Assembly (NCBI GenBank): GCA_034440635.1
Contig: JAOTON010002268.1
Coordinates: forward strand, 186,001 to 250,000
Reading direction: 5' to 3'
DNA length: 64,000 nucleotides
Origin: Lepas anatifera
Lineage: Eukaryota > Arthropoda > Thecostraca > Lepadidae
The position numbers and the translations under genes are program-made. This document shows positions 6,203 to 62,665 of this stretch, piece after piece; positions within the stretch are counted from its first letter, which is position 1; the number at the start of each line of letters is the position of its first letter. A model generated the notes under the pieces. That model ran no database searches and was not told the origin of the DNA. It saw only the letters and a program-made list of their open reading frames with translations.

Positions 6203-7234
6203 TTAACCCTCGCCCCAACGGGGGCCATCGATGGCCCCCCTAAGGTTTTTCCGGGATAGCAGAAAAACGAAGAGGCGCAGCACCGCGGTTGAGGGCTCTA
6301 CCTCTCACTGCATCATTTTCCCACCATCCCTGAAATTTTTTACCCCGGGTCACCCAAGGTCAGGTCACCAGACGAGGTCAACCAAGGTCACCTCACTTTA
6401 ACTTTAGAGCTCTGTAAGAGCTACATTTCGAATTCGATCAATTTGAAACTTCCTACACTTTATGGCCCTTCCAGGGTCTACAAGGTGTATATCCGGGATT
6501 TTTCGATTTCGTGCCCTGAGGTCAGGTCGCGAGGTGACCTCTCCCATTGAAAAAGCATAGAGAAAAGCTGTCTTATGATCTTAAAGTCACAAAAGCGATT
6601 TAAAATGCTCAGCTTGATCAGAAAAGCGTTCTTGGACACCCTTTCACGGATTCCAGGGGCCATATTTGCCCTTTGACTTCTCCAAGGTCATCCAAGGTCA
6701 CCAGGGGTCAAAAACAGTATTTTGACAATAACGTTTGACCTAATTAAGCTTAGAGCGCTGAAACAAACACCATCGTGTTTGTCTTGTCACTGGCTTTCAT
6801 TTGATATACAGCAAGGTCACTTTCTGACCTTTCGTAACCTCAGGTCATCTTAGGTCACGAGGTGACCTCTGGAGGTCAAACTAATTGCGGAAGGTCTTTA
6901 CGTTCCACATAGTGGAAAAAGGACTGACAATTTCCTATCAAATTTACTTTACCAGACTTCAATAGCTCTAATGGCATGAGAGGTATGCACAGTTTGCTTA
7001 AGCATTGCATATTTGAGTGAAAATTGCCGATCTGGACCTAATTTGACCTCTGGAGGTCAAACCATTGACCTGAGCACTAAAACATGCTAAGTAATTTCTT
7101 ACTGAATTCACGCGAGCTTTCTATTGCACCTTGCAGATTTGCGCTAACGCCCATATTTTCGGAGTTAGAGGAGGGCCATCGATGCCCCCGTGGGGCGAAG
7201 GTGGCGCTGGACCCCCCGGTGGGGCGCGGGTTAA
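6203..7234 (-). mobile_element. TTAA-B1, family B element, complete
   Basis: TTAA at 6203-6206 and 7231-7234, 1032 bp. The left (single-module) end reads TTAACCCTCGCCCCAACGGG and then the palindrome with core GGCCATCGATGGCC, followed by CCTAAGGTTTTTCCGGG. The right end has the doubled GGTGGGGCG-type module. The interior holds many AGGTCA/TGACCT hexamers, including the family B run of half-sites spaced by four bases near 6685-6710 (its third member here is GGGTCA). Small frames inside it are chance. Confidence 0.85.
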
Positions 7235-7691
7235 TCCATGCTATCCGATCTGAAGACAGGCAACGAAGCCACTATGCCACCTCGGCCGCAAATGCGACCT
7301 TGTCTCCAACTTAACTCCGATTTCTTGGACATAGAAACCTAACACTCCAAACTCAATTTTGCCACAGAAATCCAATGAAAAGACTCAAACTGCTGTAAGG
7401 ACGAGGCTAATAATGTCACAGGATGAATCAGCGCCCAAGAGAACCCCTTCAACAATGTTTCACCCAAATGTGGGATTTAGCGTGTTATCTTCAGATCTCT
7501 TGGTCGTTTTGCCATGGCACGCCCCACGTATCCACCATTAGATTCAGTCTCAAACGCTCGTGACCCATCCAAATGAATTTGACCACGCTTAGCAAGTACT
7601 TCAGTTTGCGACATTACCCATGGTGATCGATTAATTATTTAACTTCACAATACGTGGTCGAATTCATTGCATTCATTGCAAAAGAATCATC
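7235..7691. other. Unique DNA, no gene recognised
   Basis: No gene or repeat recognised. Frames of about 60 codons have no domain signatures. Confidence 0.5.
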
Positions 7692-7840
7692 ACCTGTAAC
7701 GATGGGAAATGTGTCATTGTTTTTATGAAAACAGCAAAACAGTTTGACAAATAGTCGATATAAAAGTGTTTTATCTACTATTTGTTGAAGTGTTTTGTTG
7801 TTCTAATAAAAACAATGACACATTTTCCATCTTTACAGAT
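7692..7840. repeat. Long foldback (inverted repeat), about 69-bp arms
   Basis: The left arm 7692-7760 is an imperfect reverse complement of the right arm 7772-7840, with about a dozen mismatches by eye and a loop of about 11 bases. The outer parts are strongest: AATGTGTCATTGTTTTTAT on the left against TAAAAACAATGACACATTTT on the right. It could be a very small palindromic MITE or the template of a hairpin RNA. The flanks do not show a clear target duplication. Confidence 0.8.
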
Positions 7841-7884: not shown

Positions 7885-8911
7885 TTAACACGCACCCCGC
7901 TGGGATCCCTGGCATGACGCGCCCCGCTGGGGGGGCGAATTTAGCACCCCCCTCCTTATGCCATTTCCCAGGAAAGCTAAAGAAAAATTACGGACAGCGT
8001 TTGAAAGCTCTTGACGAGACGAAGATAAATTATATGGAGTACTTTTATGTCAGGTCAATATTTAGGTCAGCATATGTCAAATAAGGTCCCATAGGCTTAC
8101 AACAGGGCAGTGTACGTTTCCCCATCTAGATTTTTACTCAGAAAAGCTAGAGAAAATATTTATGCATCATTGGATTCCTCTTATTGTGCCACATCGAATG
8201 ACGTATAATATGACATCGCTAGGTTAAATTGTGAGAATATCCTGACATCGAGATAGGTCAAGGTCACAGGTTGACTTGGTATAGTCATGTTGAATATCAA
8301 TCGACTCCCCGTGATAATACAAGCACAATGCAAGCAAAATGGGAGCTTTATCTCAGTTCAGTGAGAAGTTATTGGCAAAACAATCACTGTATGCTCTTGT
8401 GACCTGATATAACCTTTGAGAGCTCAGATGGTCAAAAAATCATCTTTGTGATCAAGATTGTGGCAAGAATACACTGCTTGAGCATTTTCAGTTTTATCTA
8501 TTCCGTATTTACCTAAAAGGAGCCCTTTCTATTTTTCTCCATACACTTATAGTAATGGGGTGACCAAAAAATTGGCCCCACCTTAGGTCACCAATATTAA
8601 AATTCCGAGATAGCGGATTTGTAGACCCTAATGGCCTCATCATATTGTCAAAGTTTCAAACTGATCGGTTAGCTGATAATCCTTAGGCGCCGCTTCAAAC
8701 TCGTAATTTTAGGTTTTGAGGTCGGGTCGGTTAACCTTGAATAGCTCCTTGACCTGAAATGACCTAACCTAAAAAAATTGGTGAGATGCGTGAAATGATC
8801 AGGTATAAGGTAGTGTGAGTTTCGTTGTTCTGCGTCTCGTCATTTTTTGCCTTATCCGGGGAAAACCAGGAGGGGGGGCGAATTTTACCCCCCCGGCGGG
8901 GCGCATATTAA
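7885..8911 (+). mobile_element. TTAA-C1, family C element, complete
   Basis: TTAA at 7885-7888 and 8908-8911, 1027 bp. The left end carries the module CGCACCCCGCTGGG, a spacer, then CGCGCCCCGCTGGGG (doubled end), then a GGGCGAATTTAGCACCCCCC segment. The right end has a single module (GGCGGGGCGC) preceded by a GGGGCGAATTTTACCCC-type segment and GGGGAAAACC. About eight AGGTCA/TGACCT hexamers. It shares long stretches with C2 (20056-20990) and, inverted, with C3. No coding capacity. Confidence 0.85.
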
Positions 8912-9044: not shown

Positions 9045-9898
9045 TATAGCGTCAAGTTTGTGTAGCATCGATAATAGTACTATTTCTTAACTGTTTTAGC
9101 ATACAATCATTTCAGCCATCATAATACCAGCTGTACTTCCAGCTTCTTCCGTTTTAATGCGCTTAATTGGTAATGCCCAAATATTAATGTCACTGCATGA
9201 AACTTGATGCCAGTTTTGTCGAAGACTGCGAAAATTAAGCGTCGGCTGTGTGTGGAGTCAGCGTCCACTGCCGTCGGCAGTTGATACCCGGGCCCTGCTG
9301 GAGCCCACCCTGCAGGCCACTCAGCGGTCGTCAGCTGCGACCCCGCCGGCTGTGTCCCGGGGCGGCTGACCCGGCCTGCCGCGCCCAGCCACGTTCCTGC
9401 CCCACAAAGGCGCCTCAGTCGGCAGGATAATTGCAGAAATGAGAGATAACCGACAAAAGGATCCGACAAAGGCAACAAACGAAGTCGCCGTCACAATCAC
9501 GGCCCATTGTTGTATAATTCGTGTTTATTGTAGGGGGCGGCTACCACAGTGGAGCTCAATTGGCTGCAGTGCCCACACTGCAGCTCCGTCTACAGTTGCC
9601 GCCGGCCCAAAACTGCACCGCTGGCAGCGCCGCTCTGAAGCCGCACTAAGAACCATGCTCCACAGAACTGGAACCAAGACTGCTCTTATACGGCCTGTGC
9701 GCCCGGCCGGTGAGATAATCGCAGGCTGTTTCGGCAGCAAAGCACTTGATGTTCGATCATAGTGCTTACTTTCAGGCCGTTGTCGAAAAAGTCCTAATCT
9801 TGTTGGTTTGAACACCTTTTTTGGCGTGACATGTCATAATTATCTGGATGTGCCTGATGTGCTATCAGTGAAGAACGGTGACATGGAAACGTTTTGTT
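9045..9898. other. Unique DNA with a GC-rich island
   Basis: From about 9240 to 9425 and 9530 to 9730 the sequence is GC-rich and unlike the neighbouring repeats. Frames are open on both strands (up to 119 residues) with no recognisable domain. It could be unique regulatory or untranslated DNA; there is no direct evidence. Confidence 0.4.
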
Positions 9899-12773
9899 TC
9901 AACACGCGCATTGACGGGGGTCTGAGCCACCTTCGCCTTGACGGGGGGCGTGTACCCGCCCCCACTAAGATCTCGAGAACCGTGCTAGGTAGCGAAAAAC
10001 GGTAAAGAGTGTTGGATAGCCCATCCACTTCTCCATCGAAATTATTTGCACCATTTTTTCAGGTCACATTTAAGGTCACTAGAGGTCAAAACATGCCGTA
10101 ATAGGGATAACATGTAAATCACTTTTTCGGACATTAAATTTGAACAAGTAAATATAGAGAAAACGACATGAACTATATGAATCGTCGCAGCAAGCCGCAT
10201 CAAATGATATATAATATGACCTTGCTAGGTAAAATCAAGGATTTGACCTGACCTGAGGTCAGGTCAATATCAAATTGGGCAAAATGCATATCATTAGAAC
10301 TGCAATAACAAGGCAACAGAGGTGTAGAAACTTGCCAACTCGGCTACTGGAGTTGGTGACACATTTACAAAAATCAAGGTGCATAAGTGTGACAAAATTG
10401 CAATCCTGAATATATGGTTCAAAATCAAACCACATATTTTCGAAATAGAGAATAAAGCGTGTAGCGAATATAATAATTTAGCAACTCTGTTCTTCAATTG
10501 CACAGCGAAGCATCAGTGATACAATATTGGTACTGTGTTCAGTTCCTACTAAAACGAGGGACCCCCGCTGCAGAAAACCCGGAAACCGCCGTCACAGTTG
10601 CCAGATTTTAACATGCAGCCCAATGGTGCCGATTGTTAGTAGTTGCCAGAAAGTTGCCGCCAAGATGCTCGAAATGTGACAGTCAATTTTTTTCGAGAAA
10701 TACACGATTGTGGGCATATTTAAGGCATTAACGATAGCGCAGATACATTATCAAGTACTTCTCTGTCCATTTTGTCAGGTTAAATCATATTTAAAGTTTG
10801 AGTCTTTTCGATTTAGCGGCCCCTATTTCTTTGAAGTTAGTATTAAGTACGCCTAAAGGCTACTAAGAAAAGTACTAAATGAGTGAAAAATAAACATAGC
10901 TGGGCAGCAATTCTCCTTAAACTACGCACCAGTGACAAGACTAGTTTGAAATGTTTATGTGATGTAGAGCGATGTAGAGCCTGCCAAAAATTTAAACAAG
11001 TGGGAAGCCATTTCTTTTGAGGGCGTATTTATTAGGTATATCTGAGATAAGTGCAGGCTAAAACTAGCTAGAATAAATAGTGCTGTCCATGGCTAATCTA
11101 AGATGAATGTAGGCGTCTTTGAGACTGATGCACTTTCACATATCAAACTTGGTTTTTCATTCCTTAGCTTGCTTGTGCCTTACCTTATTTGTGTCCTAGA
11201 TCAAGATTAGTTAGGTAGATTTGGAGCTGGAGGAAGTTGGGAGAGTTGGCGCCAGCAACAGACTGGCAAAAACAGTAATTCACGTGAGATTTCATGATCA
11301 AATTATCATGTCAATATTGTACAGATATCAAATGTGTGCCAATGCAGTCCTCCACAAAGTGTCAAAACACACACTGGAGAGGGGCCGGCACTAACGTGCA
11401 CTGAAGGGGGCCTAATAGACCCCCCTTCTCATTTAAGAAAATCACAGAAAATCTCAGAAAGACTTCGAAAAACGCTGGTTAAGGGTGCGTTGATTACTAC
11501 CAGTGGCAGTAAGCAACACACAGGACCTGAACTGCATGGAGTTAAAGCAGGATTTTGACTACACTGGATCTTTCTTTGGTATGAGACTTCCAATACCTAT
11601 GTACCTATTAGGCCAATAGACATAATTTTACATCTATGCAGGGTAGTTTCATCTATGTAGGGTAGAGTTTTTACTGCAAGAAGGAACGACCAGGCAGGTG
11701 ATAATCGGGGTGGGAGGCAAATTTTAAGCATTTGATCTGTCTATAAAAATGCTACCTAAGGATCCAATTTACCAACACATTTTAGGTAGATCCAAATCCT
11801 ATGTTGACATTGACATTTTGTCTCTTTTGTTGATATATGAGATAGAAGTTCAGTGGGGGGGGAGCTGTGATAAGGGTTCCCAATTGTGTGTAAGTGTACG
11901 CTCCCATTCATAGATTAGTTCCTAATAATAATTATTGTGATGATAATTGCCACATTTAATCATGGGGAAATGTACCATAATTGAAAACACTCCTTCAAAA
12001 AATGAAAACTTCTTCAAAAGGGAAATGCATGTCATTGGGGGAAACTGCAGTCAGAGTTACCAATAATAGTTGTGATCCCAATACTGGAAACAATGGTGCA
12101 TAATTGGAAATTTTCCTTCCAAAAACAAAAACATGATCTAAAAATGAAAACACAGTTTACTACTTTCATGCTGTAATGGCTTGGTGCTTGAACCTTGTCT
12201 GCTGCAAAAAGTAAGAGACAGGTAGATGACATTCAGCATATTGGAAATAGTATTCAAGTATACAATTATTATTTCCAGCTTTGTGTGACAGAGGAGGCAT
12301 ACGTCGCATTGAGTTTGTGACAGCCAGCATTCTTTCTGCACCTCTGCAAGGCAAATCTAATGCAGTTAAAATAAACGCTCCATCTCTATTCATTACTTAG
12401 TTATTCAGTTAAAACCATTTTTCCCCTGTATTTTCAATGGAGAGGTCATGGCTCGTACCTGACCTTAGGTCATCGATATCAAAAATACCGGAACATATTT
12501 TAGAGAACTCGGTGGGACCATTATGTGATATGAGTTTCAATAGGATACGTTAACCCCGTTCCGACTTATGCTATCTTTTTTGAGGTCAGGTCACTTGACC
12601 TGTACTGGTGACCTGACCTGAAATGGCCTAACCTTAAAATTTTGACATAAGTTGTAAAAGTGATGAGGAAAAAGGCATGCCAAGTATGGTGGCGCTACGC
12701 GCCACCGTTTTTAGCGTGTATCTCCGAAAAACCCGAGGGGCCGGGTACCCGCCCCCGTCAATGTGCGTGTTAA
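9899..12773 (+). mobile_element. TTAA-A1, family A element split by a hAT insertion
   Basis: The doubled-module end starts at 9899 (TCAA in place of TTAA, then CACGCGCATTGACGG), and a second TTGACGGGG module follows at 9938-9949. The single-module end closes at TTAA 12770-12773 (CCCCCGTCAATGTGCGTG). Removing the 2030-bp hAT element and its duplicated 8 bp leaves about 837 bp, the normal length of family A. The central palindrome of overlapping TGACCT/AGGTCA lies at about 10244-10266, just left of the insertion. Confidence 0.85.
10309..12354. mobile_element. hAT-type non-autonomous element, copy 1 (with 8-bp TSD)
   Basis: The element proper is 10317-12346 (2030 bp). It starts CAGAGGTGTAGAAAC and ends TTTCTGCACCTCTG, so the termini are inverted repeats of about 14 bp. 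It is flanked by a perfect 8-bp direct repeat, CAAGGCAA, at 10309-10316 and 12347-12354. An 8-bp duplication with CAGAGGTG-like ends is the hAT signature. No transposase frame is present; the longest frames are about 75 codons. A second copy lies at 25305-28433. It sits inside A1, so it inserted after A1 did. Confidence 0.92.
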
Positions 12774-15189: not shown

Positions 15190-16009
15190 CTAATACGCGC
15201 ATTGACGGGGGTCCGAGCCACCTTCGCTTTGACGGGGGTACCCGCGCCCCCTCTAAGATCTCGAGAACCACGTTAGGTAGCGAAAAACGGTAAACGGTGT
15301 TGGGTAGTCCATCTACTTCTCCATCAAAAATATCTGAACCATTTTTTCAGGTGACGTTTAGGGTCACTAAAGGTCAAAACATTGGGATAATATGTAAACG
15401 AAGGTTTTCGGTCATTACATCTGAACAAGTAAAGATAGAGCAAAACGATTTAAACCATATGAATCCTTGCAGCATGCCAAATCGAATGAAATATAATATG
15501 ACATTGCTAGGTCAAATCAAGGGTTTGAGCTGAGGTCAGGTCGAGGTCAAATTAGGTAAAATGCATATCACTAGAACCGCAAAGACAATGAAAGACTAAT
15601 GCAATCAAAATAAGTGCTCTGCCACCATTCGTTACTAAGTTATTCAGTTAAAGCCATTTTTCCATGTATTTCCAATGGAGAGGTCATGGCTCGTACCTGA
15701 CCTTAGGTCGCCGATAGCAAAAATACCAGAACATATTTTAGAGAACTCAATGAGCCCATTATGTAATACGGGTTTCAATCGGATAAGTTCACCCTGTTCC
15801 GACTTATGGTATCTTAAACTTTTTTAGGTCAGGTCACTTGACCTGTACTGGTAACCTGACCTAACCTAGCCTTAAAATTTTAACAAAAGTCGTAGAAATA
15901 ATGAGAGAAAATGCATGCCAAGTACGGCGGCGCTACGCGCCGCCGTTTATGTACTGTTTCCGAAAAACCCGAGGGGGCGGGTACCAGCCCCCGTCAATGC
16001 GCGTGTTAA
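15190..16009 (+). mobile_element. TTAA-A2, family A element, complete
   Basis: The left end is decayed (CTAATACGCGCATTGACGG) with the doubled module; the right end is TTAA 16006-16009. 820 bp. Subterminal CTAAGATCTCGAGAACCAC near 15253-15271 and the GGCGGCGCTACGCGCCGCC hairpin near 15928-15946 match the other A copies. Its substitutions and damaged left terminus make it one of the older A copies here. Confidence 0.85.
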
Positions 16010-17344
16010 AGCTGTTCGAGCTTACAGTCCCGGCTATTTCGGCCTCTGCTCTCATGATAAATATTTGTTTTTGTTTTGAGTTCTCCTTGAAAGAGAGGTC
16101 CCATTACAGAACATGAATAAATTCCTTTACAAATAAAAGCATAGCAGTCCCCAGCAAACTCGTTTCTCACTTAGAAGTTTTGAGTCGACTCTACTCTGAC
16201 ACGTTTTGTGATTGATTCTAATTGTGACTCAACTAATCTGTTTGAGTAAGTGGTCTGACTGATTTAAAAATAGAATCGACTCAGAGTCGAACTCTCTGGA
16301 TTGCGTCCCAACAGGTCTGGACTCCCCAGTTGATACAAATGTGGAGGGCTGCATCTGCGGAGTAGAGAGATGTCATGTAAGATAAGATCGCCATCCGGTC
16401 TTCATTTGAACCGTCTGCGAATTCCGAGGTTTTAACATCAACTTTTAACATTCAAGGTGCGAATTCCAAGGTTTTAACCCCGACAGTTTTAACATCACTG
16501 TAATTTTTTAGTGATGTCGGGCCCACTGAATAGCGACATGTTTGGACTGTTAACCAGGGGCCTCATTGTTTAGCAACGTGTTGAGCCTGTCAATCCTCAC
16601 AGGATTAAGCCTCGCGTTCCCATTAACTTGTGGAATATAAACATTGTGCCGATCTAACATTCACTTTGTAGTCTGCCCGTGCACTGAAGCTGCGCAGGCG
16701 AAAATCGAGGATTGTATCGGCAACGGCGCGCTGGACCCTAAGTGGAAGTGGGGCCTGGGTAGTGTGAGCCAGTGTGTGGCGCCGTTTTCGCCTGGGGCGA
16801 TCGGTCAGCGTCGGAGGGCATTGAGGCGCCCTCGGACTTCGCCAGTCCTGAGGCGACAGTATCAGGCCGGGCCACAATGCTGTCACAGCGCTATCGGGCG
16901 CCGCGTTTTTCAACGTCCACCAGCACAGTCACATGCGATCAAGACTGTGTCGTATGCGACGTGCCTGACGCAGCTTTGGATCCAAGGTAGCTGTAGGAAA
17001 AAAATCTGGGAATGCTTACGATAGCGCACTGTGGTAATATGATAAAGTGTTATGTATTTTTACGTACACGAAATGATCTCTATTATTTTCCTATCAACGC
17101 TTCTAAGCTAACCAGGGACGGTAGATTCAGGGGACAGAGTAAGCAGTTGCACACCATGAAAAAACTGAGGGTGTGCAAAAGTATATTTTTGTACACCCGG
17201 TTTTGGCTTGGTCCGGGGAGACACCCCCCGCCCCCCGCCCGGATTTGGCGGGCGCCCCCGGGCGGTCACGAGACAATCAGATCTAAACACCACCTACCTG
17301 AAGAGATAGGACCCTCTGTGTGAAATAAAGACATTTTCACATAT
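16010..17344. other. Unique DNA with a GC-rich island at about 16670-16990
   Basis: Near 16410-16500 a GCGAATTCCRAGGTTTTAAC phrase is repeated twice. The island 16670-16990 is open on both strands (up to 126 residues) but shows no domain. At 17205-17285 there is a very GC-rich patch with self-complementary GGCGGGCG/CGCCCGCC-like runs just before the minisatellite. Confidence 0.45.
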
Positions 17345-19007: not shown

Positions 19008-20058
19008 CCAGGTGTTGCGATTGTAAGCTGGTCTGGGAACTGTTTTCGAAAATAGTGGACTGTATCAATTGTATGAGTGTTACCTACAGGGGCGTAGCCA
19101 GGATTTCGCTCAGGGAGGGGCGGCGCCCCAAAAAGGGCCCCTGCGACAGCGCCGAAAGGGCCCTGATGGGTAAAAAGGGCCCGTCTTGTTACAGAATAGA
19201 GCGCTGAAGAGGGCTTAAGAGGGCCCTGTCTGATAAAAAATGTCAAATTTAGCCACAGAGCATAGCGCGGGCGAGCTGCGCTTGTGCCCTCAGGGGGCCC
19301 TTCGGGCCCTCGGAGAGGGGCCCCCCCCCCTAACTATATCGTTCGGTTTATCTATCCAGAATCTTTCCAATCACCGTCAACAGAGGAACCCGGAGGATCA
19401 ATTGGCCGAATCTATTTTCAATATTTTTGCACGTGATGTCAAGAGGGAACCAAATAACACCGACAGATAAGTCACAGAGATGACATAACAGGTTACACGG
19501 TTGGATACGGTCTGCGACCACTCGGCGGGGCTGCACCGGTGAATACTCACGCGTACAGGCCTGCACCGGCCTGCACCAATCCTTAAAGGCCGGCCGCTAC
19601 GCGCGACCGGATAATATTCAAAACACTCGCACACACGTTGAAATCCTCACTTCAAAGTTACACCGGTGGTGGGGCTCCGAAATGACTAGCGTTCGAATTA
19701 AATATGAAAGGTTAGAGCTATCCCTAGCGGGATGAACGAACTGGTCAGGCAGGCCAAATTCGCCCACTGAAGATAATTTTATGTTAAATTCCAATAAATT
19801 ATAATGTATACATAAATAAGGTGTCTTTGCGCTGGCAAACAGTGCTAAACGCAGAGCTCACCCCACACCCACCGGCGGAGTCGTCCCAACTGACTTCTCA
19901 ACGAGTCGCAACAATAGCGGCGCGTGCCGCCCAGACTTTAATTGCCATGACTACCAGCGAATCGCGCGAACAGAAAGTGAAGTACCTCCGAGCGCTCTAC
20001 TATTGAAGTTATACCACGCGAAATAAGGTCGATTTTAAGATTCAATTTCAACACCAGG
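19008..20058. mobile_element. Probable solo LTR (1041 bp) with 5-bp TSD
   Basis: 19013-20053 starts TGTTGCGATTG and ends TTTCAACA, that is TG...CA with a short inverted repeat TGTTG/CAACA. It is flanked by the 5-bp direct repeat CCAGG (19008-19012 and 20054-20058). This is the form of a solo LTR. AATAAATTATAATG and ATAAATAAGG near 19795-19820 could serve as poly(A) or promoter signals. No internal retroelement coding is present. BEL/Pao is possible from the TGTTG start and the BEL/Pao coding remnant elsewhere in the window, but this is inference. Confidence 0.75.
19088..19330 (+). mobile_element. CAGGGGCGTAGCC-type insertion inside the LTR
   Basis: Begins CAGGGGCGTAGCCAGGATTT, a terminus style used by many non-autonomous DNA transposons. 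It runs through repeated AAGGGCCC phrases to a C run near 19320-19330. No mirrored end or target duplication found, so the right boundary is uncertain. Confidence 0.45.
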
Positions 20059-20996
20059 AAAGCTAGATAAAATTACGGACGGAGTTCGAAAGCTCTTGGC
20101 GAGACGAAGAGAAATTATTGGAAACATGTTTATGTCAGGTCAATATTGAGGTCAGCATAGGTCAAAGAAGTTCCATACGATTACAACAGGGCAGTACACG
20201 TTTCCACCTCTAGATATTTACTCAGTAATGCTAGAAAAAAACATTTATGCAGCATTAGATTCTTCTCATCGTGGTGAATTGAATGATGTATAATATGACC
20301 ATGCTAGGTCAAATTGTGAAAATGACCTGACCTCGAGCTAGGTCAGGGTCACAGGGTGACCTAGCATGGTCATGTTGCATATCAGTCGACTCCCCGTGAC
20401 AATATAAGCACAATGCAAAGAAAACAAAAGCTTTATCTCAATTCAGTGAGAAGTTATTGGCAAAACAATCATTGTATGCTCCTGTGACCTGACATTACCT
20501 TTAATAGGTCATATGGTCAAAAACTCAACTTGATCGTCAAGATCGTGGTAAGAATACATGGTATGAAGATTTTCAGCTTTATCTATTCAGTAATTAATGA
20601 AAATAAACCCTTCCAATTTTTCACCATAGACTTACAATGGGGTGAGAAAAAAATTGTTCCCACCCTAGGTCAACAATATCAAAATTACGAGATCGCAGGT
20701 TTGTAGACCCTAATGACCTTACCATATTGTGAAAGCTTCAAACTATTCGGTTGGCAGATCTTTCTTAGGCGCCGCTTCAAATTCGTGATTTTAGGTATGG
20801 AGGTCGGGTCGCTGGACCTTGGATAGCTCCTTGACATGATATGAACTGACCTAAAAAATTGATCGGATGCGTCAAATTAATCAGGAGTAAGGTAGGCTGT
20901 AAGTTTCGTTGCTCTACGTTTCTTCGTTTTTGCGTTATCTGTGGAAAACCAGGAATGGGGCGAATTTCACCCCCCTCCCAGCGAAGCGCAAGTCAA

Positions 20997-21474
20997 GTCA
21001 CACTTAGCACAGTTATTCTAAGAGAGTCGAGGCACGACCTTTTTCTCTAAGCAGCGAGCCTTGAGCATTACGTCAGGTTGCTAAGACTGCTAGTAGATAC
21101 CTCATGTAACGTGACCATCCGGGAAGGACGGGGTTGACAGGGGATTAATTTCGATTTTGTATATCATTGAACGGTAAGTACTGGGACGAATGAAACATCG
21201 ATCAAGTGGTTTCTCGGCATGTATTTTACATAGTCTTCGGCCCCATTCATTCATTCATTTATATATTACTCACACTTCCACACTACTAAGGTGGCTTTTA
21301 AAATGGTGTCGTGATGAATATGAAGTGATTATGAACTATGGAGGGAGATGGCCGGGATGAGGAAAAGTGAAGATAAAGAGGATGGGATTCTACCTGGAGG
21401 GGTCGCTGCAGCCCCAGGCACATACGCTCACAGCCTCCAGGTAGAGTAAGGTTAAGGCAAGGATTATATACCGG
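20997..21474. other. Unique DNA, no gene recognised
   Basis: No gene or repeat recognised apart from a short ATTCATTCATTC run near 21246. Confidence 0.5.
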
Positions 21475-22323
21475 TTAACACGCGCATTGACGAGGGGGGC
21501 GGGAACCCGCCCCCTCGGGTTTTTCGGAGATAGCAGAAAAACGGCGGCGCGTAGCGCCACCGTACTTGGCATACCTTTTCCCTCATCATTTTTACAACTT
21601 CTGTGAAAATTTTAAGGTTAGGTCATCTCAGGTCAGGTCACCAGTACAGGTCAAGTGACCCGACCTCAAAAAAGTTTAAGATAGTATAAGTCAGAGCAGG
21701 GTGAACTTATCCCATTGAAATTCATATCACATAATGGCCCCACCAAGTTCTCTAAAATATGTTCCGGTATTTTTGATATCGATGACCTAAGATCAGGTAC
21801 GAGGCATGACCTTCTCCGTTGAAAATACATGGGAAAAATGGTTTTTACGGAATAACTCAGTAACGGATGGTGATAGAGCATTTATTTTAGCTTCATTAGA
21901 CTCGCCTGGGCTTTGCAGTTCTAATGATATGCATTTTATATAATTTGACCCTGACCTGACCTCAGGTCAGGTTAAATCCTTGATTTGACCTAGCAAGGTC
22001 CAATTATATATCATTCGATTCGGCTTGCTGAGAGGATTCATATAGTTCAAGTCGTTTTGCTCTATCTCTACTTGTTAAGATGTAATGGCCGAAAAAACTG
22101 AATTTACATGTTATCCCTATGACGGCATGTTTTGACCTCCCGTGACCTTAAAGGTGACCTGACAAAAAAATGGTTCAAATGTTTTCGATGGAGAAGTGGA
22201 CGGGCAGCCCTACACCGTTTACCCTTTTTCGCTACCTACCGTGGTTCTCGAGATCTTAGGGGGGCGGGTACCCGCCCCCGTCAATGCGAAGGTGGCTCAG
22301 ACCCCCGTCAATGCGCGTGTTAA
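21475..22323 (-). mobile_element. TTAA-A3, family A element, complete
   Basis: TTAA at 21475-21478 and 22320-22323, 849 bp, single-module end on the left and doubled CCCCCGTCAATGCG on the right. Left subterminal sequence CCCTCGGGTTTTTCGGAGA followed by the GGCGGCGCGTAGCGCCACC hairpin. TGACCT/AGGTCA cluster at about 21953-21970 in the centre. Closest in layout to A5. Confidence 0.88.
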
Positions 22324-25902: not shown

Positions 25903-26929
25903 TTAACCCGCGCCCCACCGGGGGTCCGGCGCCACTTCGCCCCACCGGGGGCCATCGATGGCCCCCCTCTAACTCGAAAATATGGGCGTTAGCGCAAATC
26001 TGCAAAGTGCAATAGAAAGCTCGCGTGAATTCAGTAAGAAATTACTTCGCATGTTTTAGTGCTCAGGTCAATGGTTTGACCTCCAGAGGTCAAATTAGGT
26101 CAAGATCGGCAATTTTCACTCAAATATGCAATGCTTAAGCAAACTGGGCAGAACTCTTATGCCATTAGAGCTACTGAAGTCTGGTAAAGTACATTTGATA
26201 GCAAATTGCCAGTACTTTTTCCGCTATTTGGAACGTAAAGACCTCCCGCCAGTGGTTTGACCGCCAGAGGTCACCTCGTGACTTATATGACCTGAGGTCA
26301 CGAAAGGTCAAAAGTGACCTTGCCGTATATCAAATGAAAGCCAGTGACAAGACAAACACGATGGTGTTTGTTCCACCGCTCTAGCTCAATTAGGTTAAAA
26401 GTTATTGACAAAATACTGTTTTTGACCTCCGGTGACCTTGGATGACCTTGGAATAGTCAAAGGGCAAATATGACCCCTGTGATCCGTGAAAGGTTGTCCA
26501 AAAACGTTGTTCTGAGCAGCCTGAGTATTTGCAATCATTTTTGTGGCTTTTATATCATGAAATAGCTTTTCCCCATGCTTTTCCAATGGGAGAGGTCGCC
26601 TCGTGACCTGACCTCAGGGCACGAAATCAAAAAATCCCGGATATACACCTTGTAGACCCTGGAGGAGTCATGAAGTTTAGGAAGTTTCAAATCGATCGAC
26701 TTTGAAATGTAGCTCTTACAGAGCTCTAAAGTGAAGTGAGGTGACCTTGGTTGACCTCGTCTGGTGACCTGACCTTGGGTGACCCGGGGTAAAAAATTTC
26801 AGGGATGATGGGAAAATGATGCAGTGAGAGGTAGAGCCCTCAACCGCGGTGCTGCGCCTCGTCGTTTTTCTGCTATCCCGGAAAAACCTTAGGGGGGCCA
26901 TCGATGGCCCCCGGTGGGGCGAGGGTTAA
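25903..26929 (+). mobile_element. TTAA-B2, family B element inside hAT copy 2
   Basis: TTAA at 25903-25906 and 26926-26929. Doubled GCCCCACCGGGGG module on the left, single on the right. Palindrome GGGGGCCATCGATGG near both ends. The uninterrupted hAT copy 1 near 10900-10930 reads CAATTCTCCTTAAACTACGC, where copy 2 reads CAATTCTACTTAA, the element, then TTAAACTACGC. That is an empty site with a single TTAA, direct proof of TTAA target duplication. Confidence 0.93.
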
Positions 26930-27943: not shown

Positions 27944-27997
27944 ATTAATGGGAGCATACATGTACATACATGTATGTACATGTACGCTCCCATTAAT
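27944..27997. repeat. Perfect-arm cruciform, 27-bp arms without loop
   Basis: The left arm (ATTAATGGGAGC then ATACATGTACATACA) matches the reverse complement of the right arm at 26 of 27 positions. Only the right half has a counterpart in hAT copy 1 (near 11897-11915), so the palindrome arose or was inserted in copy 2. The preceding 60 bp contain repeated ACATGC. Confidence 0.85.
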
Positions 27998-36150: not shown

Positions 36151-36347
36151 TCACCTTTATAGTCATAATCACCTTTATAATCACCTTTATATAATCACCT
36201 TTTTCTATAAAATTCAACACAATATGCTCAGAAAATAATCTGCTTCCCCGTTCTTCAAACATATATATAAATCCTGTTCGCGCCATTTTTGTTTTAATCA
36301 GTAGTTTTACAACACAAAATTGAACCCGGCATGTAAAAATCACCCCA
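36151..36347. other. Short TATAATCACCTTT repeats and unknown flank
   Basis: At 36152-36205 the phrase ATAATCACCTTTAT occurs about three times. The rest could be more of the Penelope-like element but shows no motif. Confidence 0.4.
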
Positions 36348-41515: not shown

Positions 41516-42361
41516 TTAACACGCGCATTGACGGGGGCGGGTACCCGCCCCCCTCGGGTTTTTCGGAGACAGTAGAAAAACGGCGGCGCGTAGCGCCGCC
41601 GTACTTGGTATACCTTTTCCCTCATCATTTTTACAACTTCTGTGAAAATTTTAAGGTTAGGTCATCTCAGGTCAGGTCACCAGTACAGGTCAAGTGACCC
41701 GACCTCAAAAAAGTTTAAGATAGCATAAGTCGGAGCAGGGTGAACTTATCCGATTGAAACTCATATCACATAATGGCCCCACCGAGTTCTCTAACATATG
41801 TTCCGGTATTTTTGATATCGATGACCTAAGTTCAGGTACGAGGCATGACCTCTCCATTGGAAATACATGGGAAAATGGTTTTTACGAAATAACTCAGTAA
41901 CGGATGGTGATAGAGCATTTATTTTAGCTGCATTAGACTCGCCTGGGCTTTGTGGTTCTAATGATATGCATTTTATATAATTTGACCCTGACCTGACCTC
42001 AGGTCAGGTCAAATCCTTGATTTGACCTAGCAAGGTCAAATTATATATCATTAGATTCGGCTTGCTAAGAGGATTCATACAGTTCAAGTCGTTTTGCTCT
42101 ATCTTCACTTGTTCAGATGTAATGCCCGAAAAACTGAATTTTACATGTTATCCCTATGACGGGCATGTTTTGACCTCTCGTGACCTTAAATGTGACCTGA
42201 CAAAAAAATGGTACAAATGTTTTCGATGGAGAAGTAGATGGGCAACCCAACGCCGTTTACCGTTTTTTGCTACATACCGTGGTTCTCGAGATCTTAGGGG
42301 GCGGGTACCCGCCCCCCGTCAATGCGAAGGTGGCTCAGACCCCCGTCAATGCGCGTGTTAA
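41516..42361 (-). mobile_element. TTAA-A5, family A element, complete
   Basis: TTAA at 41516-41519 and 42358-42361, 846 bp. Single module left, doubled right. Palindrome GGGGGCGGGTACCCGCCCCC at the left end (about 41535-41554), hairpin GGCGGCGCGTAGCGCCGCC at 41583-41601, central TGACCT/AGGTCA palindrome at about 41989-42011. It has intact ends and high similarity to A3 and A6, so it is among the younger copies. Confidence 0.92.
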
Positions 42362-49122: not shown

Positions 49123-49708
49123 TTAGCCCGACACCGCCTGGGCTCTTTTCGTACACCACCGCCCGGTGCGTCCGATCGGAACTCGCCCCCTATACACACA
49201 TACCTTTAACAGGATACCTTTACCTAACACCTTTGAGAGGATGACGACCTTGGTAACCTTAAAAGGATAAAAATATGTCTTAATTGTGTTCTTAAGACTT
49301 AATTGTGTTCCGTTCAGAAGTTATAGATACAAAACAACCATGACTTTTGATGAAGTCTGGTGGCCTTGGTATGACCTGTCCTCAAAATGGATGACCCATG
49401 CATATATTTGGTTTCAAGAGTCTTCCAACTATGTTTAGCAGCTTGATTTAGCTTTTCTAGAAGTCGAGTTATACTTTGGTTTTGTCAGCCCCATTTAAAA
49501 AAAACAGAATCGCCTTACATTGGTTTAGAAATGACGTCATAACTCGTTGACCTGACCTGATCAGATGTCAATGCTTGGTCATTAGTTTTCAAATCGATCG
49601 CCCTAGATATCTAAAAAGTGACGCGCGTTTCATTTTAATCTTTTGGAACCACTTGCAAAGAACCTAAAGGGGTCCGATCGGACCCCTCCCCGGGCGATGA
49701 AGGGTTAA
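49123..49708 (+). mobile_element. TTAA-D2, family D element, internally deleted
   Basis: Right end TTAA 49705-49708, preceded by GGGGTCCGATCGGACCCC (about 49671-49688), a perfect palindrome. Left end TTAG (decayed TTAA) followed by CACCGCCTGGGCTCTTTTCG-like sequence matching D1's right end. 586 bp against 1149 bp in D1, so about half of the interior is missing. The interior near 49490-49560 matches D1 near 3660-3750 in reverse complement. Confidence 0.75.
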
Positions 49709-56683: not shown

Positions 56684-57830
56684 TTAAATTTGTAGCAGAA
56701 TAGAGGCGTGAATGTGGGTAGAAGCCGACATCCAGGTACACCATTTTTCCCACTTCAAAGGTTATCCCCAAGTGATGTTGCCAGAAATTCGAAGGGCTAT
56801 TCGTCCCCGACTACAAACGTCGGCCACAACATACTTAACACGCGCATTGACGGGGGTCTGAGCCACCTTCGCATTGACGGGGGCGGGTACCCGCCCCTAA
56901 GATCTCGAGAACCACGGTAGGTAGCGAAAAACGGTAAACGGCGTTGGGCTGCCCATCCACTTCTCCATCGAAAACATTTGAACCATTTTTTTGTCAGGTC
57001 ACATTTAAGGTCACGAGAGGTCAAAACATGCCCGTCATAGGGATAACATGTAAATTCAGTTTTTCGGCCATGAAATCTGAACAAGTAAAGATAGAGCAAA
57101 AGAACTTGAACTATATGAATCCTCTTAGCAAGCCGAATCGAATGATATATAATTTGACCTTGCTAGGTCAAATCAAAGGATTTGACCTGACCTGAGGTCA
57201 GGTCACGGTCAAATTATATAAAATGCATATCATTAGAACTGCAAAGCCCAGGCGAGTCTAATGCAGCTAAAATAAATGCTCTATCACCATCCGTTACTGA
57301 GTTATCCCGTAAAAACTATTTTTCCCATGTATTTCCAATGGAGAGGTCATGCCTCGTACCTGACCTTAGGTCATCGATATCAAAAATACCGGAACATATT
57401 TTAGAGAACTCGGTGGGGCCATTATGTGATGTGAGTTTCAATCGGATAAGTTCACCCTGCTCCGACTTATGCTATCTTAAACTTTTTTTAGGTCGGGTCA
57501 CTTGACCTGTACTGGTGACCTGACCTGAGATGACCTAACCTTAAAATTTTCACAGAAGTTGTAAAAATGATGAGGGAAAAGGTATACCAAGTGCGGCGGC
57601 GCTACGCGCCGCCGTTTTTCTGCTGTCTCCGAAAAACCCGAGGGGGCGGGTACCCGCCCCGTCAATGCGCGTGTTAAAATGGGAGGGAGTACTAAATATC
57701 TGAATTTGCCATTAATACGCCGCGTTTCCATCGGATACCTACATTAATCTTGTCTGTTTTAGGTACATTTTGTTTTGTAGAACAGTTCGAAATATGAACA
57801 GAATCTGGAAACAAACCGGCCCTCTGTTAA
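56684..57830 (+). repeat. Segment S1 (TTAA-bounded), filled copy carrying A6
   Basis: Begins TTAAATTTGTAGCAGAATAG (TTAA 56684-56687) and ends CGGCCCTCTGTTAA (TTAA 57827-57830). Without A6 it is about 300 bp and matches S2 (58861-59155) at roughly 95% by eye. Exactly bounded by TTAA on both sides. Confidence 0.9.
56835..57677 (+). mobile_element. TTAA-A6, family A element with empty-site control
   Basis: TTAA at 56835-56838 and 57674-57677, 843 bp, doubled module left. About 16 AGGTCA/TGACCT hexamers, including the central perfect palindrome at 57183-57205 (11-bp arms of overlapping half-sites around one G). The empty site is in S2: near 59000 the sequence reads ACAACATACTTAAAATGGG with one TTAA. 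Confidence 0.95.
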
Positions 57831-58860
57831 CCCGCGCCCCACCGGGGGTCCGGCGCCACCTTCGCCCCACCGGGGGGCCATCGATGGCCCCCCTCTAACT
57901 CCGAAAATATGGGCGTTAGCGCAAATCTGCAAAGTGCAATAGAAAGCTTGCGTGAATTCAGTAAGAAATTACTTCGCATGTTTTAGTGCTCAGGTCAATG
58001 GTTTGACCTCCAGAGGTCAAATTAGGTCAAGATCGGCTATTTTCACTCAAATATGCAATGATTGAGCAAACTGGGCATAACTCTTATGTCGTTAGAGCTA
58101 TTGAGGCCTGGTAAAGTACATTTGATAGAAAATTGCCAGTACTTTTTCCGCTATGTGGAACGTAAAGACCTCCCGCCAGTGGTTTGACCTCCAGAGGTCA
58201 CCTCGTGACCTAATATGACCTGAGGTCACGAAAGGTCAGAAAGTGACCTTGCCATATATCAAATGAAAGCCAATGACAAGACAAACATGATGGTGTTTGT
58301 TTCACCGCTCTAGCCCAATTAGGTCAAAAGTTATTGCCAAAATACTGTTTTTGACCTCTGGTGACCTTGGATGACCTTGGAAAAGTCAAAGGGCAAATAT
58401 GACCCCTGGGATCCGTGAAAGGGTGTCCAAAAACGTTGTTCTGAGCAGTCTGAGTATTTGCAATCATTTTTGTGGCTTTTATATCATGAAACAACTTTTC
58501 CCCATGCTTTTCCAATGGGAGAGGTCGCCTCGTGACTTGACCTCAGGGCACGAAATCGAAAAATCCCGGATATACATCTTGTAGACCCTGGAGGGGATTA
58601 TGAAGTGTAGGAAGTTTCAAATCGATCGACTTTGAAATGTAGCTCTTACAGAGCTCTAAAGGTGAAGTGAGGTGACCTTGGTTGACCTCGTCTTGTGACC
58701 TGACCTTGGGTGACCCGGGGTAAAAAATTTCAGGGATGATGGGAAAATGATGCAGTGAGAGGTAGAGCCCTGAACCGCGGTGCTGCGCCTCGTCGTTTTT
58801 CTGCTATCCCGGAAAAACCTTAGGGGGGCCATCGATGGCCCCCGGTGGGGCGAGGGTTAA
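57827..58860 (+). mobile_element. TTAA-B6, family B element between S1 and S2
   Basis: TTAA at 57827-57830 and 58857-58860, 1034 bp, doubled module left. Half-site run TGACCT-N4-TGACCT-N4-TGACCT in inverse orientation near 58351-58376. It joins the right TTAA of S1 to the left TTAA of S2. Confidence 0.93.
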
Positions 58861-59159
58861 ATTTGTAGCAGAATAGAGGCGTGAATGTGGGTAGAAGCCG
58901 ACATCCAGGTGCACCATTTCCCACTTCTAGTTATCCCCAAGTGATGTTGCCAGAAATTCGAAGGGCTATTCGTCCCCGACTACAAAAGTTGGCCACAACA
59001 TACTTAAAATGGGAGGAGTACTAAATATCTGAATGTGCCATAAATACGCCGCGTTTCCATCGGATACCTACATTAATCTTGTCTGTTTTAGGTACATTTT
59101 GTTTTGTAGAACAGTTCGAAATATGAACAGAATCTGGAACCAAACCGGCCCTCTGTTAA
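58861..59159 (+). repeat. Segment S2, empty copy of S1
   Basis: 295 bp from ATTTGTAGCAGAATAGAGGC to CCCTCTG, then TTAA 59156-59159. Several substitutions and small indels against S1 (for example CACTTCAAAGGTTATCC in S1 versus CACTTCTAGTTATCC). Confidence 0.9.
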
Positions 59160-61645
59160 TAGTTTTTGCAATAGATTGACAAAAAACGTAATTTTTGAAC
59201 CAATTGTCCGACGAGGGAGTATTTTCAAATGATGGCAAAGGGCTGCTGTCACCAGCTTCAGACAATAAAAAGCTCGCAGCCATAACCAGACATCATTGAC
59301 TGAGCTTTATGCAGTAGCTGATCAAAATGGCAGTTTCCCCTAATACGCTAATCGAAATTTAGACGAACACAATTCCCTGTTTCTCACTCATCGCCTGTCG
59401 ACGCTCTAATTCCCACGTCTCAGCCCCGGACGACATACGCTCGCTAGGGTCAAGCGAGGCGCCCAAGGTCACGAACGACCTTCGCAACCGGCCACAGGCG
59501 GTGTAGGCAGGCGGCCCCAGTGCGGCAGCGAGGGCCAGGGCAGTGCGCTATATCTGCATGCTCGATGGAGCGCGGCAACTAACATCCGAGACAGAGACGT
59601 CCGCACTCCAGGGACCGTTAGTGACGGGCAACGATCTCGGATCACATCCCATTCAGAGGCCGGCGCTTCTACGCATATGACTTTTCCGTGATGCATGACG
59701 CACTGAAAATAGTGCCCAACCTAGGTATGATTGTAGTGTTGTTCGACTACAGAATTGGCCATGCGTGCTAGCTCGAGCACTGCAATTCGGTCAGCTCATT
59801 CCGAGACCCTTGTCTGGTTTTGGACGGTTCTTGAAAGAGGCTGTGAGATGTTAGGTATCTGCCGTCATTCTCTTGAAGTGCGTGTTTGCGCCAAAATTTC
59901 ACTGGAAACCAAAGAAAGGGAATGACACTGCAAGGGCTTAAAAGGGCACATTCATAGATAATCAAAAGTCACATTCCAATTCTCTCATTTTCTCCATTGC
60001 GCACTTTTGTTTCCTGCTTTGCGCAATACACCTAACTAGGGTTCCATAATAGCCCTCAATAAATGGTATAATGGTCTCTGTATGTTTAAGGGGAATAGGT
60101 CAATGGGGAACAGGTCTCCCGTTATTTAGGAATCAGAAGGGCTCTGGTTCGTATTGGATAAAATCCGAAGCGCTGGGGACCATTAGGAGGGGCCGAGGAC
60201 CATGAATGGCCCCCGGCTTGTTTACAAAATATGCCCTTATCGTGTCTTTTTCCTTGGAAATCTTCTGGAGCTTGTGTTATTTGAACTTTATTCTTCTATT
60301 CAGAACTCCAACGATACAGCCACTCCAACTTCCAGAGGGCAGAAAGGGGAAGTGGAGAACAGTGAGCGGGCATACGGTCATGTTGGAAAAAGGACTAGCA
60401 TTTGCTTATGACGACATCCACCGTATTTATTTTTCGGTTAGGTGTGGGCCAATAGAGTGGAATTAATAGCCTTACATGTAACAGTGCAATGAGACCATCC
60501 GGAAGCAGCACGAGAGAGAGAAGCATGCTTGTTGAAAAACTTTTGTATTTAATAAGGATTAAATACTATTCACTGCTATAATTTATGGATATGTTCTTAC
60601 TTGAGAAACAGTTCAAGGGGCCACACCCGATTCGTAATCTTATGCTTAACCCAACGAAGGATCGTTAAACTATCGAAAAATTCGAATCTGTGACAACTAT
60701 CACAAGGCGCGTGTATACTGGAGCATACCATTTTCCGGCTTCAGTTCATCTTTTCGGCGCATTCTCAGCGGACTGGCGAACCACTGAAAGGCCGGGTCTC
60801 TATGAAGACAGAGCACCGTCGCGTTCTTCATCCTGGGTCGCTATCTGCCGTGACAAAACATCGGCAGCCCGCCTGAGACAAGGCTTCTGCGAGCGGCGGT
60901 CCATTGTGAACGGGGCAGAGGCGTGTCCAGCGCTTAAGCTGGCGGGCGTCTTCTCACTAGCAAGGAAAATGCCATAAAACGTGTTTGAATTCAGTACGAA
61001 TGATCCATACTGAATTCCACGCCGTTTGAATGAATTCCCAGTGTGCGAGTCCCAGACTGCGCCCCTGATCTGCCGTCTGTCCTGCATCAGCCATGGCTCG
61101 TTCATTATGGGGCGGTATTCAGCGATGTCGCCTTCGGCCTCCGCTATCTGGCCGGTCTGATCAGCCAGCGCGCCCGACATTGATTTTGCCATTAGCTGTG
61201 AAGCCGGTCGCAGTTTTCAGTCGCTCATTTATTGTCTTAGCGCGACACCGGTGATGCAGAGCTGGGAGACTGTCGATACTTTTAAAACGATGCACTGACT
61301 TAAAATTAAGACCAAAAAGTGAATATTTTAGTCAATTTTCATGAATGACCATTGATTCTATAATTAAAAAATGACCATTTTAAAAAAACACACTCGCATC
61401 TGTTGTAAATTATGTTACCGGCTAAGCCTAATGTGTAAGGTAAGATTTAAGCCTAGTTGCGGACCAAGCATATTACCTAATGTTCCAAATCATGCAGTGT
61501 GGCTTAATTTTGCACTCGCTTTATGTTTATCTGACCATGTATGTTATAACCTCATTCATCATTGGGTCCTCCAGCACGGGATCTACTAGAGTACCCTTTG
61601 ACCCATGAGGCCATCGAAAATTCCCATTTAGCGTTCAGTGTAACG
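59160..61645. other. Unique DNA with GC-rich islands
   Basis: Islands at about 59395-59700 and 60690-61250, open on both strands (up to 130 residues) without recognisable domains. The second holds AT-rich islets such as CTCATTTATTGTC. Nothing else recognised. Confidence 0.4.
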
Positions 61646-62665
61646 TTAACCCCCGCCTTGGTGGGGGTGTTTGAACATCCCCATCCGGTTTTCCGGCGGC
61701 ATGAAGAAACAGCGGTGCGAAGCGCCGCCGTACTTGGCCCACCTTATCCTTGATTAATTCCGCAACTTTCACAAAAAAATTAAGGTTGGGTCATCTCAGC
61801 AGGTCAGGTCACCTGTGCAGGTCAAGTGACCTCACCTCAAAAAATGTTTAAGGTGGCATAAATAGGAAATGGGTGAATCTATCGGAATGAAACTTATACT
61901 ATATAATGGGTCCACCGAGTGCTACAACATTCATATCCGGGATTTTTCATATCGATGACCTAAGGTCAAGTACAGACCATGACCTCTCCATTGGAAATAC
62001 ATCGGGAAAAACAGAAATTGGGCGGGCTGTATTTGGGTAGATACAGCTGAGAATACCTTCATATTATCCAAATCGTAGTATACTGGGTCCCTCTCTAGGT
62101 TCAGCTTGTAATTTTTACCTTTGACCTCTTAGAGGTCATTTGGGGTTATTTAAGCAGTTTTCAGACTTATGTCAATAACTTTGAATGAAATGATGATACA
62201 TATTTTATTTTTATATCATTGCTCAGATTGCTCAGATTTATTTTTTTATCAGATTGCTATTGCAAGTCGCTCGATATGCATATTGTCTATGCTACGTGAA
62301 AAAGTGACCTTGACCTGACCTGAGGTCAGGTCTTTTTTACCTGGTATGGTCATATTATAGACTATTCGCTTTGTGGTGATGAGAGGAAGTGAACGGTACC
62401 TAAAAAATTGATTTAACTCAATTCTGTCAAACGCTAGAGCCCAAAAAACTTGACTCAAAATCCCACTTTCATCTACCTGTCATGACCTCAATATTAACCT
62501 GAGCCAAAAAGTGACGGATATAGTTTCTTCACGAATTGGTATGAGCTATCCACCAGCGTTCGCGTTTTCTTCTATCCCGCATAGGGGCCGAGTTCAAGGG
62601 GGAGTGTTCAAACACCCCCCACCAGGGTGAAAGGTGGCTCGGAGGCCCGCCGGGGTGCGGGTTAA
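61646..62665 (-). mobile_element. TTAA-F, family F element, single copy
   Basis: TTAA at 61646-61649 and 62662-62665, 1020 bp. Left: TTAACCCCCGCCTTGGTGGG, GTGTTTGAACATCCCC, then CCGGTTTTCCGGC and a GCGGTGCGAAGCGCCGCC hairpin. Right: GTGTTCAAACACCCCCC, GAAAGGTGGCTCGGAGG and GCCGGGGTGCGGGTTAA, the same sentence as A and B with other modules. The interior is a diverged relative of family A (for example ATCGATGACCTAAGGTCAAG near 61951) with about 14 half-sites and a central palindrome at about 62311-62332. Confidence 0.88.

Follow-up and report, generated by a model that had tools for sequence, protein, structure and literature searches.

In a 64,000-nucleotide stretch of the Lepas anatifera genome (contig JAOTON010002268.1, positions 186,001 to 250,000; hereafter the window), short non-coding transposons of one piggyBac lineage carry arrays of AGGTCA, the nuclear-receptor half-site. 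The elements are non-autonomous and of the type of miniature inverted-repeat transposable elements (MITEs), and the pattern of substitutions among their copies suggests that selection maintains the hexamers while the elements amplify and that the hexamers then decay neutrally. We consider it probable, from sequence comparisons, that the arrays act in cis in the mobility of this lineage, and the hexamer seems to have been preserved because it helps the element multiply, not because the host uses it.

AGGTCA (TGACCT on the opposite strand) is the most over-represented hexamer of the window, with 268 occurrences against 31 expected from a first-order Markov model (8.7-fold). Most of these (237 of 268) fall within 14,898 bp of elements, element G being excluded, and the remaining 49.1 kb, with those of G included, hold 31 (0.63 per kb). 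The first-pass annotation of this DNA had described hexamer-rich transposon arrays and few hexamers in the unique DNA, and both descriptions are confirmed. The arrays are also present beyond the window, as seen in a 200-kb sample made up of twenty 10-kb stretches at round coordinates on 12 contigs that were known from the family B elements they bear, and so not strictly random. There we counted 420 hexamers against about 100 expected (third in rank behind TATATA and ATATAT), 297 of them in the 19.5 kb (9.8%) that match our element library, a density of 15.2 per kb as opposed to 0.68 per kb (123 hexamers) outside. More sensitive matching placed 298 inside elements and left five clusters of at least three hexamers outside; three of these were inspected, and the one in L045 starts at a TTAA that leads into a terminal repeat and then a G/C palindrome, as in the known elements, the other two being undelimited.

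Across the 1,044,440,039 bases (2126 contigs) analysed, the perfect direct repeat of the half-site with a 4-base spacer (DR4, AGGTCAnnnnAGGTCA) occurs 223,375 times (109,864 + 113,511), or once per 4.7 kb, against 406 (181 + 225) for the reversed-pattern control. The corresponding repeat with a 1-base spacer (DR1, AGGTCAnAGGTCA) occurs 21,150 times (10,337 + 10,813; control 103 + 95 = 198), a DR4 to DR1 ratio of 10.6 to 1. AGGTCA itself is enriched 22-fold inside elements; among its 18 single-base variants compared there, GGGTCA is the highest (4.3-fold), and AGGTGA (3.5-fold), AGGTCG (2.8-fold) and the receptor-type AGTTCA (1.5-fold) are also enriched.

The evidence that bears most directly on why the hexamers persist comes from substitutions in aligned copies of families B and C (36 and 14 rows, respectively, a split C copy counting as two rows; window_61646 and the L036 match were dropped for poor fit to C). 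Setting CpG columns aside, we called a substitution shared when it was found in at least two rows and a singleton when it was found in one. Sites with a shared substitution were about threefold rarer within hexamers than outside (10/207 and 186/1235; p=1.6e-5), and sites with a substitution in at least three rows were rarer there too (3/207 and 97/1235; p=1.8e-4), whereas sites with a singleton were equally frequent in the two classes (73/207, or 0.353, and 452/1235, or 0.366; p=0.76). Given that singletons arise mostly after insertion and shared substitutions mostly before it, the source copies apparently maintained their hexamers and the dead ones did not, a split that selection on mobility predicts and retention by the host does not. 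The earlier statement that the hexamers survive while the rest of the element diverges is supported; the check proposed with it, whether hexamers mutate more slowly than their neighbours, has a split answer, yes for shared changes in the multiplying lineage and no for the singletons acquired after insertion.

The deficit of shared substitutions was robust to several controls. Circular shifts of the hexamer mask gave an equally low shared rate in 1/882 cases for B and 1/692 for C, and the result held when the 20 best-matching B copies were left out (8/879 shifts as low for B, C set unchanged). Stratified by base, the odds ratios for shared substitution were 0.24 and 0.27. Shared rates at the six hexamer positions were 2.8-8.3% against a background of 18.3%, and the deficit stops sharply 3' of the hexamer, where the next three bases are at 16-26%; positions -1 and -2 are at 10-12%. 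When 28 words seen at least five times in B and C were treated in the same way, seven had a lower shared rate than AGGTCA, and all seven, judged by their letters, overlap AGGTCA/TGACCT sites. Identity between families was likewise higher within hexamers than outside them, at 28/34 versus 202/343 for B-left and C-right, 40/41 versus 231/318 for C-right and F3-right, 41/42 versus 609/851 for F1 and F4, and, in the weakest usable comparison, 39/58 versus 304/538 for B and F1.

The elements are piggyBac transposons, as observed in a duplication of TTAA for which the empty site exists and in a coding relative with a DDD transposase. At the insertion 56835-57677, the empty copy of the surrounding repeat keeps a single TTAA and the filled copy has TTAA on either side of the element. 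TTAA stands at both ends of 18 of 20 full-length copies in the window and 200-kb sample (11/11 B, 7/9 C) and, by eye, of 17 of 20 further B copies, L009, L014 and L028 being without it at one or both ends. The termini open with CCCT at one end of B, CCCG at its other end and in the coding element, and CACG in C, the piggyBac criterion being CC[C/T]T. Lengths of the MITEs run from 820 to 1035 bp, and none of the window's four open frames of at least 150 codons lies in a B or C copy.

Comparing the ends inward from TTAA, with hexamers masked and the first 50 bp skipped, we found two homologous classes: a terminal repeat followed by a G/C-rich palindrome at B-left, C-right, F1-right, F3-right, F4-right and the left end of the coding element, and a second class comprising C-left, F1-left and F3-left. 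In this masked comparison B-right and the right end of the coding element had no homology to another end; by eye, the inner part of the terminal repeat is present a second time in both B-right and C-left. Genome matches to the terminal repeats with at most 2 mismatches numbered 38,279 for C (19,762 + 18,517) and 38,268 for B (20,113 + 18,155), with 0 and 1 in the controls. Since both ends of one copy can match, these figures correspond to roughly 20,000 well-ended copies of each family, and the 10 B matches of at least 380 bp in the 200-kb sample imply more copies if worn ones count.

A search of the genome for the piggyBac domain gave 711 candidates, of which 116 were scored and 11 loci were read, whole or in part. 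Three of the 11 (C1623, C618 and C2098; 95-96% identity) are of one lineage that has MITE-type ends and hexamers. The C1623 element is 4,274 bp long with terminal repeats agreeing at 15/16 bases, and its open frame of 689 codons, counted from GTG, matches PF13843 (E=1.9e-64) and is homologous to the piggyBac transposase 6x67 over about 510 residues (E=3.2e-70). Three aspartates (D305, D389 and D488) are invariant in 13 aligned sequences and eight Cys/His positions are invariant or nearly so; we take these to be the catalytic and the zinc residues, respectively. Among named proteins, the closest relative comes from the barnacle Amphibalanus amphitrite (51% identity). With hexamers masked, the left end of this coding element is homologous to C-right, F1-right and F3-right (z of 6.4, 10.9 and 5.4). 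Its 10 hexamers lie in the last 602 bp, at 164-187, 334-355, 494-504 and 602 bp from the right end; the C618 copy (96% over 4325 bp) has 11, and the right part of the C2098 copy (95% over 901 bp) has 10.

The elements of other piggyBac lineages that were sampled are poor in the hexamer. Three elements, bounded by their best TTAA inverted pair, have 2, 1 and 2 hexamers, and a fourth, nested in a B copy at C1258, has 4 scattered over about 2.9 kb; L055-L057 (0, 0 and 1 hexamers) were left out as controls since their true right ends are not all covered. The C1258 locus, in which B ends surround a piggyBac gene, was rejected as an autonomous master of B, its relatives showing a different piggyBac nested in B. 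This nested element (L060 with L058, G000:C1258:2507400-2512800) has CCTCTTGAG ends, a frame in two pieces and flanks of ACAT/ATAT, not TTAA. We also observed an F1-type element near two of the coding copies, about 10 bp away in L054 (4656-4667) and about 440 bp away, reversed, at C1623 (L053). A scan of viral contigs with the transposase gave 3 pattern matches and no relative.

The hexamers are grouped in clusters with a pooled best period of 167 bp (156-172 individually in B, C, F1, F3, F4 and the coding right end), computed on consensus or single sequences; none of 2000 random placements of the clusters reached the observed period strength, although the families, being partly homologous, count as fewer than six independent cases. 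At well-kept ends the first cluster is 143-197 bp inside, at the worn F4 end and the far G end 114-131 bp. Distances between hexamers in the 200-kb sample show the same spacing, peaking near 0-40, 160, 320, 500 and 670 bp with troughs between. Within clusters the commonest start-to-start distances are 10 (DR4 and the everted repeat ER4), 5 (half-sites overlapping as direct repeats, DR-1) and 7 (ER1). In that sample DR4 is the commonest pair (49), followed by DR-1 (31), ER1 (19) and ER4 (16), and DR1, DR2, DR3 and the inverted repeats IR0 and IR1 are absent among the 30 pair types listed; with orientations and spacings mixed in this way, no single receptor dimer accounts for all. Separately, DR1 sites of the form AGGTCAAAGGTCA recur as pairs about 130-150 bp apart at many of the listed places, such as G000 C13:201956-202119, a pattern that suggests another family with its own half-site spacing.

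Several finer statements about the sites could be followed up. DR4 spacing is indeed kept in all six B copies of the window, and the change to GGGTCA reported in two of them falls, by alignment, at the third site of the triple in the copies at 6203 and 36348; the view that a ready-made, DR4-spaced cluster arrives with every insertion is supported as well. The extended site CCAAGGTCA had been claimed for several of the half-sites, which is correct for family B and does not extend to a general form. The triplet preceding the hexamer in the 200-kb sample is CCA in 33/420, TCA in 14/420 and GTC, from overlapping sites, in 43/420, and A stands directly before the hexamer in 9 of the 37 consensus sites from B and C; these counts rule out the extended ERR/FTZ-F1 site as the general motif.

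How the arrays would act can be outlined as follows. A protein would bind the clusters during mobilisation and would be needed for efficient movement of a copy; array-bearing copies would then give rise to most new copies, and the arrays would be filtered at each round of transposition. Which protein this might be we can say only tentatively. The lineage's own transposase complex comes first among the candidates, at somewhat less than an even chance, since arrays are lacking in the other piggyBac elements sampled and piggyBat offers a known case of ends with several binding sites. Second comes a nuclear-receptor-type host protein that binds PuGGTCA, for which the exact match to the half-site, the preference for DR4 and the spacing at nucleosome scale speak, and something else takes the likelihood that remains. 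The first-pass annotation had offered, as the alternative to a hormone-receptor cluster, a repeat that serves the transposon, and of the two this is the better fit, given the deficit of shared substitutions with no deficit of singletons.

A number of observations weigh against a role of the arrays in mobility. Known binding of piggyBac-type transposases is to the terminal repeat and palindrome, and the arrays start farther in, at about 150 bp. Beyond its usual core and its Cys/His-rich C-terminal part, the transposase has no other DNA-binding domain of Pfam. The left end of the coding relative has no hexamer within 900 bp in two full copies, which means that an array is not needed at both ends, and at its right end masking the hexamers leaves nothing detectably homologous to a MITE end. 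The hexamer-bearing autonomous elements that were read belong to a single lineage, which is not the direct source of B or C. As to the substitutions, these were counted on alignments and not on a tree, and subfamily structure makes the sites non-independent; offsets -7 and -6 (1/15 and 1/18) and +11 to +13 (2/24, 2/21 and 2/19) from the hexamer are also low; and for the window copies only, the pooled rate test is borderline (87/881 shifts as low for B, 58/694 for C), the same copies split by frequency giving shared substitutions at 1/209 hexamer sites versus 57/1208 outside and private ones at 25 versus 158. The one-sidedness of the coding element's array weighs in addition against a two-ended array of the Ac/Spm type, and the sites of piggyBat are also unequal between its ends.

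The rival that survives best keeps selection at the transposition stage and makes the element a parasite exploiting a host factor: a nuclear-receptor-type protein of germ cells, bound at nucleosome-spaced clusters, would open or phase chromatin and so raise mobility, which we regard as possible, though clearly short of even. It is consistent with the exact receptor half-site, with the genome-wide excess of DR4 and DR1 over their controls and of DR4 over DR1, with a cluster period of about 167 bp that is also visible in unselected genomic DNA, and with clusters that start farther in than the outermost 50 bp; the top rank of GGGTCA among the enriched variants points the same way, though decay of AGGTCA also yields GGGTCA. 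Against it, the other piggyBac elements sampled are without arrays although they too would profit, and AGGTGA and AGGTCG are enriched above the receptor-type AGTTCA. Overlapping half-sites cannot hold two receptor domains at once, and the 31 overlapping pairs (AGGTCAGGTCA) in the sample are of this kind. The spacing taken by itself suggests nucleosome phasing by the clusters, but the 10-bp AA/TT/TA/AT signal does not exceed shuffles in four of five families and in B does so only at 10.2 bp, and a signal in B alone gives no general support for rotational positioning. The fuller proposal, in which the piggyBac lineage co-opted the half-site so that nucleosome-spaced clusters let a host receptor or PuGGTCA protein phase and open germ-cell chromatin, tying mobility to a hormone pathway and leaving more than 200,000 perfect DR4 sites behind, we hold to be doubtful.

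It is improbable that history explains the arrays by itself, that is, that tandem duplication of a unit of about 150-170 bp which happened to hold AGGTCA left the period as a relic. Two neighbouring units at the right end of the coding relative are still alike (score 41 versus a shuffle 99th percentile of 25), but with hexamers masked 0/42 pairs of 167-bp units in the MITEs (B, C, F1, F3 and F4) exceed the 99th percentile of shuffles while their hexamers persist. Given that units are alike in the coding element and not in the MITEs, the period may have begun by duplication with the spacers then diverging, and tandem duplication may well be the origin of the spacing; as a full account it fails, since a relic leaves the deficit of shared substitutions unexplained.

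Still less likely is the reading first given for this DNA, that the arrays are ready-made hormone-response clusters kept as host enhancers. The identity of the motif and its DR4 spacing speak for it, as does the precedent of Alu, which gave receptor-bound retinoic acid response elements in human cells according to the available part of PMC1785376. Decay after insertion is, however, as fast in the hexamers as in their neighbours, which excludes general retention but leaves room for a few copies having been co-opted by the host. An origin by chance, by base composition or through a mutation cold spot can be dismissed as next to impossible, given the 8.7-fold enrichment in the window, the sample and genome counts, and singletons that are not lowered as a cold spot would require.

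Ac, Spm and Hermes have many copies of a short word near their ends, selected via transposase binding, and these arrays sit in the outer few hundred bp; here, by contrast, the clusters reach the middle of the element with the period of about 167 bp kept. The present genome contains about one third as much DNA as the human genome and yet holds 223,375 DR4. For human consensus DR4, the accessible portion of PMC1785376 gives a total of about 12,400, from 6,198 being about 50%. Alu resembles our elements in that a mobile element spreads half-sites massively, in its case as DR2 retinoic acid response elements and HNF4 sites (PMC1785376; PMC3252374, as far as the available text goes). In Alu copies the consensus DR2 sites arise largely through CpG decay, unlike the arrays of 8-20 hexamers here, which are family-wide and conserved during multiplication.

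Like piggyBac and piggyBat (Myotis), the elements have a TTAA target, a homologous transposase with a Cys/His-rich C-terminal part, a terminal repeat with palindrome, and asymmetric ends. In the text of PMC11707139 at hand, the left end of piggyBat has three transposase binding sites and the right end weaker, partial motifs, an asymmetry that resembles the one-sided array of the coding relative. Those repeated piggyBat sites are longer and few in number and keep to the outermost 130 bp or so, unlike the 8-20 hexamers per element here, whose clusters return at intervals of about 167 bp over the full length of the MITE. Coral CMITEs (Acropora; piggyBac-type TTAA MITEs) differ less between families in their interior than in the terminal repeats, a pattern that the authors suggest may serve transposition; the available portion of PMC2872659 describes neither a short motif in repeated copies nor spacing at nucleosome scale. 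T2-MITE/Kolobok elements of Xenopus also have a TTAA target and abundant MITEs (PMC6004289, available part). The Kolobok termini are AGGRR or RR, whereas the elements here start CCC, CAC or CAT and the coding relative has a piggyBac transposase; termini and transposase type rule out membership of Kolobok. The spread of receptor sites by repeats (Alu), subterminal arrays and piggyBac-type MITEs with a conserved interior are thus already known. Among the literature matches listed, which cover few subscription journals, no title or abstract opening describes such an array, and the combination of hexamer arrays that run through whole elements with a nucleosome-scale period and are conserved during amplification and not after it, in elements that account for about a tenth of the sampled DNA, appears new with respect to those matches.

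Comparison of the window with itself gave six B copies (about 1035 bp, one truncated), six C copies (about 845 bp, one of them interrupted by a later insertion), one F3 element, three that are F1-related and two pieces of the shorter G. As we match the names, A of the first-pass annotation is our C, its C is our F1/F2/F4, its F is our F3, and B is B in both. Its per-copy counts of about 16 (A), 20 (B), 8-12 (C) and 14 (F) compare with our recount of 10-16 (with the split copy counted as one), 15-20, 8/13/10 and 14.

The five full B copies, with 18-20 hexamers and TTAA at both ends, are at 6203..7234 (+, 1032 bp, 18 hexamers), 25903..26929 (-, 18), 29632..30663 (+, 18), 34020..35053 (+, 20) and 57827..58860 (-, 20), and the truncated one, lacking about the first 180 bp, is at 36347..37197 (-, 15). 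Family C has TTAA at both ends at 21475..22323 (-, 13), 32050..32896 (+, 13), 41516..42361 (-, 15) and 56835..57677 (+, 16; empty site in the neighbouring repeat), has lost its left TTAA at 15191..16010 (+, 10), and is split into 9898..10316 and 12347..12773 (both +, 8 hexamers each) by the insertion at 10317-12346. The F1 element is at 7885..8911 (+, 1027 bp between TTAA sites, 8), the F1-related F2, with worn ends, at 20054..20997 (+, 13), and F3 at 61646..62665 (-, 1020 bp, TTAA both ends, 14). The hexamer-bearing range is wider than that first annotated: the F1-related F4 at 4658..5550 (-, one TTAA end, the other worn, 10 hexamers) and part of element G at 3513..3909 (+, 3 hexamers) lie outside it. 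This copy of G is a TTAA element that opens with a G/C-rich palindrome resembling those of the other families, with AGGTCAGGTCA 147 bp from the end; a second copy at 49311..49708 (-) is 71.6% identical over 409 columns and has 3 hexamers, two of them overlapping.

The empty target of the 56835-57677 insertion is in a repeat at 58857..59159 (+), where it reads CACAACATAC-TTAA-AATGGG. This TTAA-bounded repeat of about 303 bp recurs across the B copy at 57827-58860, there holding the C insertion (region 56684-59159), and is perhaps a small TTAA element or a tandem duplication. The insertion that splits the C copy is a long repeat with a second copy at 25305-28433, itself broken by a B copy. Blocks of a diverged 20-bp tandem repeat (GAGCTGATCTGGTGCCCTCT type) at 24896-33700 are broken up by B and C copies, and a 207-codon open frame on the minus strand (17363-17986) overlaps a tandem array of units of about 20 bp.

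The usual assumption about short-repeat arrays in DNA transposons is that the transposase binds them, and about receptor sites in transposons that they feed host regulation as raw material. Comparing shared with singleton substitutions tells these two levels of selection apart by sequence alone, and is applicable to other transposon-borne motifs. If a host receptor binds the arrays, a hormone pathway would gate the transposon burst that formed about a tenth of the sampled DNA in a 1-Gb genome; if the transposase binds them, the word that an unrelated family of host proteins recognises would have evolved in a piggyBac lineage. With either binder, the AGGTCA-binding proteins of the host would face an enormous number of decoy sites.

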